This document shows, piece after piece, positions 1-50,089 of a DNA stretch of 58,174 nt. The notes under the pieces were generated by a model that was not told the DNA's origin, did no database searches, and saw only the letters and a list, made by a program, of their open reading frames with translations. The position numbers and the translations under genes were made by a program. Each line of letters opens with the position of its first letter. Position 1 is the first letter of the stretch. This DNA is from Halorubrum kocurii JCM 14978. GTDB taxonomy: Archaea > Halobacteriota > Halobacteria > Halobacteriales > Haloferacaceae. The stretch is from NCBI RefSeq assembly GCF_000337355.1, contig NZ_AOJH01000068.1, forward strand, positions 1 to 58,174. The letters are read 5' to 3'.

Positions 1-33
1 GGGCGACCGAAGGGAGCCCGAAGACGCGCCCGA

Positions 34-205
34 CGAGGCTGGGGAGGCGTGAGGTGCGGTTGCGGTGCTGGGTGGGGCGGGACTCAAAGGGGCAGTCGCG
101 AAGCCGCCGCAGACGACGCAAGCACCGGAACGAGTGAGCGGAGCGAACGAGGGAGGAGCACAGCGAGTGTGCGGCGGCTTCGCGGCTGGGGCTTTGGCGG
201 TGTTC
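34..205 (-). ncRNA. Candidate structured RNA, copy A of an intergenic repeat family
   Basis: Read on the minus strand, a TTATAA box (229-234) is followed after exactly 23 nt by the conserved 5' box GAACACCGCCAAAGCCCCAG, with +1 predicted near 205. A long stem follows (arms 170-196 and 85-111, 27 nt each, containing a CCC/CCC internal loop) around a 58-nt loop. Next comes the conserved 3' box CACGCCTCCCCAGCCTCG (about 34-51). Copies C, B and D are at 1997, 37256 and 50060. No plausible protein is encoded. Transcription is inferred only from the promoter geometry, and the 3' end is a guess. The element fills the gap downstream of cysS. Confidence 0.55.
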
Positions 206-228
206 GCCGCGGATCCGTCATCAGCCAT

Positions 229-234
229 TTATAA
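229..234 (-). promoter_or_regulatory. TATA box of repeat copy A
   Basis: TTATAA in the context CGCTTATAAATGG on the minus strand. It lies 23 nt before the conserved GAACAC box, which is the normal archaeal spacing from TATA box to transcription start. Confidence 0.5.
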
Positions 235-1818: not shown

Positions 1819-1967
1819 TAGCGGGTCGTTGCTGTGGTGAGACTTTTAAACCGTCGGATCGGGCGAGAGGACGAAGACGTGTTCTCTGTCGGTTCGTCTA
1901 CTCGAGGTTAACTGGTCGTTGTCGACGGCGGATCGGTGACGGACGCCGCAAAGCCTCGGCCGTCCAT

Positions 1968-1973
1968 TTATAA
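1968..1973 (+). promoter_or_regulatory. TATA box of repeat copy C
   Basis: TTATAA, 23 nt before the GAACAC box that begins at 1997. The spacer sequence is unlike those of the other copies, so the shared distance is not simply inherited sequence. Confidence 0.5.
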
Positions 1974-1996
1974 GTGGTTAACCGTCGGTTAGCGGA

Positions 1997-2060
1997 GAAC
2001 ACCGCCACAGCCCCAGCCGCACCGCTCCGCACAGCACCTCGCACCTCCCCAGCCTCGCCG
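1997..2060 (+). ncRNA. Candidate short RNA, copy C of the repeat family
   Basis: The copy begins with GAACACCGCCACAGCCCCAG and ends with the 3' box CACCTCCCCAGCCTCG (about 2042-2057), giving about 61 nt between boxes. It lacks the long stem of copies A and B. A six-base inverted repeat (CGCCGC/GCGGCG, within about 2056-2086) follows and could belong to the RNA or end it. It lies in the 378-nt gap between the cysS start (1818) and the ilvA stop (2197). No protein gene was found in that gap. Confidence 0.5.
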
Positions 2061-2177
2061 CTCGCTCCCTCCGGTCGCTCGCGGCGTCCCTCGCGCGTGC
2101 GACTCGCGCCCTGCGGGCGCTCGCCGGCACGCGCCACCGCAGTCCCATTTATAAACAGACGATTGCCTATCTTCACA

Positions 2178-2210
2178 GAGGAGGAAGCCCACGAGTTCAG
2201 TCGTGGGTCA
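2178..2210 (+). mobile_element. Right-end remnant of an IS200/IS605-type element
   Basis: The sequence has GAGGAAGCCC followed by a perfect hairpin, CCCACGA-gttcag-TCGTGGG (2188-2207). It resembles the right-end hairpin that haloarchaeal IS605/IS1341-type elements carry downstream of tnpB (recognition from memory). No transposase or tnpB reading frame is nearby, so only the end survives. A TTATAA at 2149-2154 lies 23 nt before its first base. The hairpin overlaps the ilvA stop codon. Confidence 0.5.
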
Positions 2211-3474
2211 CTGACGCCTCCCGCGTCGTCCACTCCACTTCGTAGCCCGCCTCGCGCACCGCCGTCAGGACCCGGTCGACGTGGGCGGGCCCGTTGGTCT
2301 CCACCTCGAACACGAGGTCGGCGTCGCCCACCGGGAGGTCCGGGCGACTGCGCTCGTGGCGCACCGTCCGGATGTTCGCGCGCTCCCCGCCGATCAGGGT
2401 GGTGATCTCCCCCATCGTGCCGGGCGTGTCGTCGATCCGGACGGACAGCTCGATCAGCTGGTCCCGGTCCACGAGGGCGTGCGTCACCACCTCCTTCAGC
2501 GTCGTGACGTCGATGTTTCCGCCGCAGAGCAGCGGGACCACCGTCTCGCCGGCCAGATCGAGCACGTCGACGGCGCCGTCGTTCAGGAGAGCGGCCGCGG
2601 CGGTCGCGCCCGCGCCCTCGATCATCTGTTTCGCGCGTTCGAGGAGGAGCAGGATCGCGCTCGCCACGTCGTCGTCGCTGACGACGACCACCTCGTCGAG
2701 GTGCTCCTCCAGAAGCCCGAAGGTGAGGTCGCTCAGCCCGCCGGTCGCGATCCCGTCGGCGATCGTGTCGGGCTCCCCGCGCGTCACGAGCTCGCCGGCC
2801 GCGAGGCTCTCCGAGAGCGTCGAGGCGCCCTCTGTCTGGACGCCGACGACCCGCGTCTCGGGCGAGCGCGCCTTGACCGCGGTCGCGACCCCGCCAGCGA
2901 GCCCGCCGCCGCCGACCGGGACGAGCACGGTGTCGACCCCGGGCACCTGCTCGAGCACTTCCAGCCCGAGCGTCCCCTGTCCGGCGACCACGTCCGGGTC
3001 GTCGAACGCGTGGACGAACCGCGTCCCGGGATCGTCTATCAGGGTCTGCGCGTGCGCCATCGCCTCCGGGAACGCGCTCCCGCGCAGCACGACCTCGGCG
3101 CCGTACCCGCGGGTCGCCTCGATCTTCGCCGCCGGCGCCGACTCAGGCATCACGACGGTCGCGTCGATCCCCGCGCCGGAGGCCGCGAGCGCGACCCCCT
3201 GCGCGTGGTTGCCCGCGCTCGCGGCCACGACCCGGTCGATCTCGGGGGCGTCGGTTCCCGCCCCGGACTCGGCGACGGCTCGAGAGATCGCGTTGTACGC
3301 GCCCCGCGTCTTGAACGAGCCGGTGCGCTGGAGGTGTTCCATCTTGAGGCGCACGTCGGCGCCGCACCGCTCGCTCAGCGACCGGCTGCGCTCGACGGGC
3401 GTGCGCTGGACGATCGCCGCCGGTTCGAGCCGATCGGCGGCGGCCTCGACGTCCGCGATCGTGACGGAGGACAT
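2197..3474 (-). CDS. ilvA: Threonine ammonia-lyase (biosynthetic threonine deaminase type)
   Basis: This PLP enzyme converts L-threonine to 2-oxobutanoate plus ammonia, the entry step to isoleucine. The fold-type II PLP domain covers residues 1-310: the lysine motif SFKTRGAYNA near residue 53, the SAGNHAQGVA motif, and the glycine-rich phosphate loop VGGGGLAGG. A C-terminal ACT domain (about 325-425: LSVRIDDTPGTMGEI) is the usual site for allosteric control. I chose the ATG at 3474 over a GTG two codons earlier. A TATA-like GATAAAAC lies near 3527-3538. The last residues (THD) and the stop codon are read from the mobile-element hairpin at 2188-2207, so the native C-terminus may have been replaced. 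Confidence 0.93.
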   Translation of the reverse strand: MSSVTIADVEAAADRLEPAAIVQRTPVERSRSLSERCGADVRLKMEHLQRTGSFKTRGAYNAISRAVAESGAGTDAPEIDRVVAASAGNHAQGVALAASGAGIDATVVMPESAPAAKIEATRGYGAEVVLRGSAFPEAMAHAQTLIDDPGTRFVHAFDDPDVVAGQGTLGLEVLEQVPGVDTVLVPVGGGGLAGGVATAVKARSPETRVVGVQTEGASTLSESLAAGELVTRGEPDTIADGIATGGLSDLTFGLLEEHLDEVVVVSDDDVASAILLLLERAKQMIEGAGATAAAALLNDGAVDVLDLAGETVVPLLCGGNIDVTTLKEVVTHALVDRDQLIELSVRIDDTPGTMGEITTLIGGERANIRTVRHERSRPDLPVGDADLVFEVETNGPAHVDRVLTAVREAGYEVEWTTREASVTHD

Positions 3475-3549
3475 GAGCACGGTGTTCTCAGCGGTCCCCG
3501 AAAAGGACTCGGTTCCGAAACGGAGTTTTATCGAGCGGACCGCCCGGCC

Positions 3550-3733
3550 CTCACCGTCTTCCCGGCCCTCACCGTCTTCCTGGCTCTCACCGTCTTCCTG
3601 GCTCTCACCGTCTTCCTGGCTCTCACTGTCTTCCCGGCCCTCACCGTCTTCCTGGCTCTCACCGTCTTCCTGGCTCTCACCGTCTTCCCGGCTCTCACTG
3701 TCTGCCCCGCCTTCACCGTCTGCCCGACCTTCA
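3550..3733. repeat. 18-bp tandem repeat, about 10 copies, between phr and ilvA
   Basis: Units of CTCACCGTCTTCCTGGCT and close variants start every 18 bases from 3550. The units nearest phr are the most diverged, and the phr stop codon lies in the last one. The other end stops about 12 nt before the ilvA TATA-like box. The period of 18 keeps all six frames open, which creates false long ORFs. I see no coding role. Confidence 0.9.
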
Positions 3734-25640: not shown

Positions 25641-25744
25641 GAGACGCTGGACCGAGACACCGGACCGAGACGCTGGACCGAGACACCGGACCGAGACGCT
25701 GGACCGAGACACCGGACCGAGACGCTGGACCGAGATGCCGGGAC
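25641..25744. repeat. 13-bp tandem repeat with alternating units, about 7.5 copies
   Basis: GAGACGCTGGACC and GAGACACCGGACC alternate, so the true period is 26. The array lies between the promoter of the Tat lipoprotein (minus) and the VOC gene (plus). It opens false frames on both strands. No coding role seen. Confidence 0.9.
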
Positions 25745-37026: not shown

Positions 37027-37098
37027 CGAACTACGGTGCTGTCGGCGCGCGCCGCCGAACGGCCGCCTCCGGCGGCCGTGAGGTGCGCGTGCGAGGGA

Positions 37099-37256
37099 GT
37101 CGCTGGTGCCCGAAGCGAAGCGGAGGGTGCCAGCGACGAGGCTGGGGAGGCGTGAGGTGCGGTGCTGTGCGGTGCGCGGCGGGACTCAAAGGGGCAGTCG
37201 CGAGGACAGCGCACGCTCGCTGCGCTGTCCTCGCGACTGGGGCTTTGGAAGTGTTC
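37099..37256 (-). ncRNA. Candidate structured RNA, copy B of the repeat family
   Basis: The predicted +1 is near 37256, 23 nt after a TTATAA box (37280-37285). The 5' box GAACACTTCCAAAGCCCCAG leads into a perfect 19-pair stem (37221-37239 with 37195-37213) closed by a 7-nt loop. The stem extends past a CCC/CCC internal loop by five more pairs (CAAAG/CTTTG). The 3' box (37138-37163) is identical over 26 nt to copy A. A hairpin with G-U pairs (37099-37137) follows and may form the end. Confidence 0.6.
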
Positions 37257-37279
37257 TCCGCCGATCAGTGATTGAGTGT

Positions 37280-37285
37280 TTATAA
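37280..37285 (-). promoter_or_regulatory. TATA box of repeat copy B
   Basis: TTATAA in the context CGCTTATAAACAC, 23 nt before the GAACAC box. Confidence 0.5.
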
Positions 37286-37289
37286 GCGA

Positions 37290-37313
37290 GCGGCTGGGGC
37301 TGTGGCGGTGTTC
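37290..37313 (-). repeat. Half copy of the repeat family (5' box only)
   Basis: The minus strand reads GAACACCGCCACAGCCCCAG plus CCGC, matching the 5' box of copy C. It lacks the TTATAA at the 23-nt position and any 3' box. It ends 5 nt before the TATA box of copy B. Confidence 0.6.
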
Positions 37314-49925: not shown

Positions 49926-50002
49926 GCCAGGGATCGCGCGCGGGACGACGGACAGCTATATATAAACAAATATGTGGTGGCGCGCGCCTCCGAGCGGCCA
50001 TC

Positions 50003-50060
50003 GACGAGGTTGGGGAGGTGAGGGGTGCGGGGCGGTCGGGTGGGGATTTTGGCGGTGTTC
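50003..50060 (-). ncRNA. Candidate short RNA, copy D of the repeat family
   Basis: On the minus strand the box GAACACCGCCAAAATCCCCA starts at 50060, 23 nt after a TTATAA (50084-50089). A diverged 3' box CACCTCCCCAACCTCG ends near 50005. Like copy C it is the short form, without the long stem. Confidence 0.45.
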
Positions 50061-50083
50061 ACCGTCGATCCGGTCTCAATCAG

Positions 50084-50089
50084 TTATAA
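50084..50089 (-). promoter_or_regulatory. TATA box of repeat copy D
   Basis: TTATAA in CGCTTATAACTG, 23 nt before the GAACAC box at 50060. Confidence 0.45.

Follow-up and report, generated by a model that had tools for sequence, protein, structure and literature searches.

A composite, modular interspersed DNA repeat with TATA-bearing tandem units in Halorubrum

Four intergenic sites in the window, a stretch of 58,174 nt from Halorubrum kocurii JCM 14978, hold a TATA-like hexamer (TTATAA) at one fixed distance from a box that begins with GAACAC, and raise the question of whether they are genes with their own promoters or copies of something else. An earlier note, made from the sequence alone, had counted exactly 23 nt between the hexamer and the box at each site and had proposed a family of small RNA genes. 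Direct reading of the sequence bears out the 23-nt spacer in 4/4 window copies (A to D, Table 1). The 5' box, with up to three mismatches, occurs four times in the window versus 0.00 expected, and the 3' box four times versus 0.10 expected. A fifth box, overlooked at the time, stands exactly 57 nt upstream of the box of copy B, which places the TATA of that copy within a tandem unit. Stem-loop 1 of copy B is short and perfect, and the box of copy D is degenerate (GAACACCGCCAAAATCCCCAC), with its GAACAC starting at position 50060.

Table 1. Positions of the four window copies and their parts
Feature	Position	Strand	Remark
Copy A, whole	1..234	-	cut off by contig/window start
Copy A, TATA	229-234	-	
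Copy A, TATA-to-box spacer	206-228	-	23 nt; GAACAC box from 205
Copy A, A box	186-205	-	
Copy A, stem-loop 1	96-185	-	
Copy A, S box	80-95	-	
Copy A, E box	32-47	-	
Copy C, decayed upstream unit	about 1937-1964		
Copy C, whole	1967..2154	+	without stem-loop 1
Copy C, TATA	1968-1973	+	
Copy C, spacer	1974-1996	+	
Copy C, A box	1997-2016	+	
Copy C, E box	2044-2059	+	
Copy C, hairpins 2 and 3	about 2058-2133	+	
Copy C, end box		+	GCGCCACCGCA
Copy C, 3' TTTATAA	2148-2154	+	
Copy B, whole	37044..37313	-	two tandem units
Copy B, upstream A box	37294-37313	-	fifth box
Copy B, TATA	37280-37285	-	
Copy B, spacer	37257-37279	-	
Copy B, A box	37237-37256	-	
Copy B, stem-loop 1	37198-37236	-	
Copy B, S box	37182-37197	-	
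Copy B, E box	37137-37150	-	
Copy B, hairpins 2 and 3		-	before the end box
Copy B, end box	37044-37053	-	GGCGCGCGCC
Copy D, whole	49975..50089	-	degenerate, without stem-loop 1
Copy D, TATA	50084-50089	-	
Copy D, spacer	50061-50083	-	
Copy D, box	50041-50060	-	
Copy D, E box	50005-50018	-	

Plan and spread of the repeat

The plan of the element was derived by reading 97 distinct copies of the box and 70 terminal copies. Its 5' end consists of one to four units of the form TTATAA-N23-GAACACCTCCAAAGCCCCAG-CCGCTCGC, often two to four in tandem, after which comes a palindromic stem-loop (stem-loop 1) with CAG at its start and CTG at its end. On the 3' side of this stem-loop lie CTGCCCCTTTGAGTCCCACC and then, after a CCGCACAGCACC-rich stretch, CCTCACGCCTCCCCAGCCTCGTC; the conserved core is CTGCCCCTTTGAGTCC…CCTCACGCCTCCCCAGCCTCGTC. 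The 3' part continues with a first hairpin and GACTCCCTCGCGCGTGC, then a long second hairpin and GGCGCGCGCCACCGCA, and about half of the copies have TTTATAA ∼13 nt beyond GCGCGCC. Some copies carry additional inserted hairpin modules. Short and long forms both exist, as had been noted before, and what separates them is the absence (as in copies C and D) or presence of stem-loop 1. Several short copies look like deletions between the CCCCAGCC of the A box and the CCCCAGCC of the E box, and presumed A-to-E deletion forms are found at L130, L083, L121 and L025. The sites are a composite, modular interspersed DNA repeat, made up of tandem TATA/A-box units, stem-loop 1, the S-E core and two more palindromes.

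The host genome has 86 places that match the box with up to three mismatches, against one for a reversed control. At up to two mismatches, the A box was found in 33 of 34 genomes of the same genus, at 3 to 206 places each, and was absent from all 24 genomes of other genera examined. Matches to the 68-nt S-E core (E-value of 0.001 or better) turn up in 90 of the 293 genomes, spread over 30 of the order's 87 genera; the core has two matches in plasmid records, both haloarchaeal and one of them of Halorussus, and none in phage records. These counts leave aside a scan of the genome and viral collections with a 15-nt pattern, which is too short and yields mostly chance matches outside Halorubrum. 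Other genera follow the same plan but with GAAAGCCCC...GCCCCTTTCAGTCCC, so that beside AAAG/CTTT Halorubrum has a C-G pair and the other genera have G-C. Units of GAAAGCCCC in tandem occur in 21 of 243 genomes, from 13 genera, and the examples from other genera that were read by eye are without TTATAA. In Halorussus and relatives (L398, L424, L425, L427 and L428), a different 5' half, which has a AGCTAGCT-based stem and sequence resembling GGCTTGAACCAATCA, joins the same 3' half, CCGCACAGCACC...CCTCACGCCTCCCCAGCC. Our search of the open-access literature found no description of the family.

TATA spacing and pairing in the stems

The family itself is real: it has multiple intergenic copies, with a TATA-like hexamer preferentially placed 23 nt from the box, and it is found across Halorubrum. 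That its members are small RNA genes, each transcribed from its own archaeal promoter at the TATA towards the 3' box, would fit this preferred distance, the strong covariation of the stem arms, and an orientation that is independent of the neighbours in codirectional gaps (10 copies each way), but we consider it unlikely. The 23-nt rule holds as the commonest case and is not universal: among 95 units of the host genome, TTATAA stands at 23 nt unaltered in 37 and with a single mismatch in another 10 (47/95), so only half of the units keep it. Other units have the TATA at 17, 20, 26 or 29 nt, and it is absent from about a third of all units. It has also been lost from several copies at cysS orthologues. 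The TATA is preceded by the degraded end of another unit (CAGCCGCTCG), with no GAAA-like, A-rich BRE; several tRNA TATA boxes here have one, in a comparison that is rough because few tRNA TATA boxes could be placed. As the copies are homologous, their common spacing is no independent evidence for promoters, and we infer that the 23 nt were inherited with the 57-nt tandem unit. The spacing, which had been taken for the archaeal TATA-to-start distance, belongs to a repeat unit whose length varies in 3-nt steps. The TATA of some copies may still promote some transcripts, but such activity is not the defining trait of the family.

The stems point in the same direction. In the outer 12 pairs of stem-loop 1, 90.5% are Watson-Crick versus 70.2% with the arms shuffled among copies, and the most variable column has all four pair types. 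However, wobble pairs are nearly missing on the + strand, where ∼2,800 pairs from three stems include 8 GT/TG and 35 AC/CA, as compared with 5.0% GU in 31 tRNAs of the same genome (ARAGORN structures). In some copies stem-loop 1 is missing or inverted, and loops are inverted between intact arms at L136 (scored by script) and at L132 and L157 (by eye). Because the arms covary almost without GU wobble and loops occur inverted, we conclude that the palindromes are maintained mainly as DNA. Rfam gave no match at the gathering score nor at an E-value of 1, which also counts against small RNA genes.

An RNA of the opposite, G-rich strand, read from the 3' TTTATAA back to the A box, is a less probable reading still. 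The excess of AC over GT on the + strand (35 versus 8) speaks for it, as AC there is GU on the - strand, and some copies do have TTATAA past the end box. Yet GU amounts to only ∼1.2% of the pairs on that strand, in counts that are not phylogenetically independent, and the 3' TATA is missing from about half of the copies.

Three-nucleotide ladder of the tandem units

The tandem units have lengths of 48, 51, 54, 57, 60, 63 nt and so on, at least 98% of them being multiples of 3. In the loci compared, the distance between neighbouring A boxes is a multiple of 3 (51, 54, 57, 60, 66 or 69) for 108 of 110 pairs and 56 for the other two, and a 57-nt period accounts for 73 of the 110; the set includes two pairs that arose by chance in a bacterial contig. 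The 60 TATA-less units sampled are all multiples of 3, and the TATA spacers keep to the same ladder. Since many units share ancestry, the independent length changes may number perhaps ten. None of the other segments of these elements keeps to one class: the counts for remainders 0/1/2 are 42/47/33 from A to S, 50/39/47 from S to E and 32/70/64 from E to the hairpin. The ladder is looser in other genera, at about 59/6/38 in a manual count.

A 5' array measured in triplets could be one that is, or recently was, read as codons (for a peptide such as KAPAARLYVIDDSAVNTS), or one that is copied or trimmed by a process that steps in triplets, for instance a RadA filament; we put this forward tentatively and with considerable doubt. 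Stops interrupt the frame AAA-GCC-CCA in 8 of the 60 TATA-less units, versus 43 and 25 for the other frames and ∼19 expected. Codon-phase (3-periodic) conservation was not found in the units (P = 0.97), and coding as judged by such conservation was rejected. In TATA-type units, TTA-TAA falls in the frame AAA-GCC-CCA and so supplies a stop, the sequence past the last unit keeps no frame, and Pfam and NCBIfam returned only sub-cut-off matches with the repeat peptide. If the array did prove to be coding, such repeats would be cradles of new small proteins. The ladder is a striking, clean and testable anomaly that a plain parasitic-repeat model does not predict.

Inheritance, gene context and origin

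We compared the cysS locus (copies A and C) and the ilvE locus (copy B) in 30 species each. At cysS, the first box lies 96–99 nt past the stop codon in about 11 of the 30 species, always on the strand of the gene; at ilvE, it lies upstream, in many species either at -114 or near -141, and the count of units, 57 nt apart, goes from one (L140) through two (L142) and three (L146) to four (L145). The locus is thus inherited, and it is the number of units and the hairpin modules that change. Many Halorubrum species share copies in corresponding gaps, with unchanged orientation. The element is also patchy, missing at a given locus in many species and altogether from many genera. The host genome has no near-identical full copies, its best repeated stretch being 91% over 207 nt. 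The copies are old and show no trace of having moved recently, and, with no repeated stretch that spans a whole element, we rejected transposition in this genome in recent times. TTATAAA-like hexamers stand at both ends of the element, although only about half of the copies have the one at the 3' end.

Neighbouring genes were called with a simple codon-usage gene caller. Convergent gene pairs flank 25 of the 55 copies with both neighbours called versus 3 of 39 window gaps of at least 60 nt, a small control sample that becomes 10/57 if all adjacent window gene pairs are counted. Such a bias is expected of an element that has no fixed relation to neighbouring transcripts and is excluded from promoters; BOX elements have been reported to show it too (PMC3049150). 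A structural DNA or 3'-end element maintained by the host mainly between convergent genes, such as a boundary, a terminator or a protein-binding array, would also account for this enrichment, together with the long retention at the same loci and the conservation of the boxes across genera. We hold this to be improbable: avoidance of promoter regions yields the same bias, T-rich terminators are lacking, and the element is patchy both across species at a locus and across genera.

We favor the reading that these sites are a BOX-like composite interspersed DNA repeat of haloarchaea, ancient and, within Halorubrum, passed on largely at fixed positions, and that this repeat is probably a non-autonomous element, by now almost or wholly immobile. 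It may have originated as a non-autonomous mobile element spread by a trans-acting enzyme that recognized the conserved boxes and DNA hairpins, with new insertion now presumably rare. Recombination between A boxes would make the arrays grow and shrink, deletion between the two CCCCAGCC sequences would generate the short forms, and the arms would remain complementary because palindromes are copied, converted or inverted as whole units. Against this reading, conservation of the boxes across genera could mean a cellular function, and no transposition event, target duplication or clean empty site was seen among relatives, the closest pairs of which are only about 94–97% identical, nor did the analysis turn up a transposase.

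BOX elements of Streptococcus pneumoniae have the structure boxA-(boxB)n-boxC (PMC3049150). Like them, the Halorubrum repeat is a modular intergenic composite with a variable number of tandem modules at fixed loci and strong secondary structure, is enriched between convergent genes, and has open frames arising in it. In contrast to BOX, the haloarchaeal tandem units are 5', carry TTATAA, change by 3-nt steps and are GC-rich. The likeness is meant in the sense that the two appear to work alike, with no claim of common descent. The MITEs, PATEs and SMRs of Haloquadratum walsbyi, described as mobile families whose insertions are specific to strains (PMC3119063), are likewise transposase-free, high-copy haloarchaeal palindromic repeats with IS605-type ends nested in or near them, but the Halorubrum copies are old, diverged, modular and common to orthologous loci. 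Bacterial BIME/REP, ERIC and NIME are similar intergenic mosaics of palindromic modules (PMC3049150 and general knowledge) that differ in sequence, size and modules, and no RAYT-like partner was identified here. HF1-like haloviruses have class I/II intergenic repeats with promoter elements and AT-rich viral promoters (PMC7230728); intergenic position, presence in haloarchaeal genetic elements and promoter-type sequence are shared, whereas the Halorubrum core has no match in the phage collection. With as many as 206 matches to the A box in a single Halorubrum genome, the repeat would amount to a composite family of pan-haloarchaeal reach. It would give archaea a counterpart of BOX, account for much of the intergenic sequence of Halorubrum, and provide a natural system for the persistence of long palindromes and tandem arrays in haloarchaea.

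Several other features lie close to the repeats or elsewhere in the window. Hairpins resembling the right ends of IS200/IS605 (TnpB-type) elements were seen by eye beside or inside repeats at window positions 2178-2212 and at L010, L063, L087, L143 and L135; the one in the window overlaps the stop of a threonine-deaminase-like gene, next to the 3' TTTATAA of copy C. Three elements (G000 C27:8005, C43:44619 and C23:53234) are ∼300-600 nt from tRNA genes. Two minisatellites were also found in the window: an 18-nt repeat at 3543-3722, where CCTGGCTCTCACCGTCTT recurs about nine times in the gap between the threonine-deaminase-like gene and a photolyase-like gene, and one of 13-nt units at 25641-25741, where GAGACGCTGGACC alternates with GAGACACCGGACC in a gap between divergent genes.
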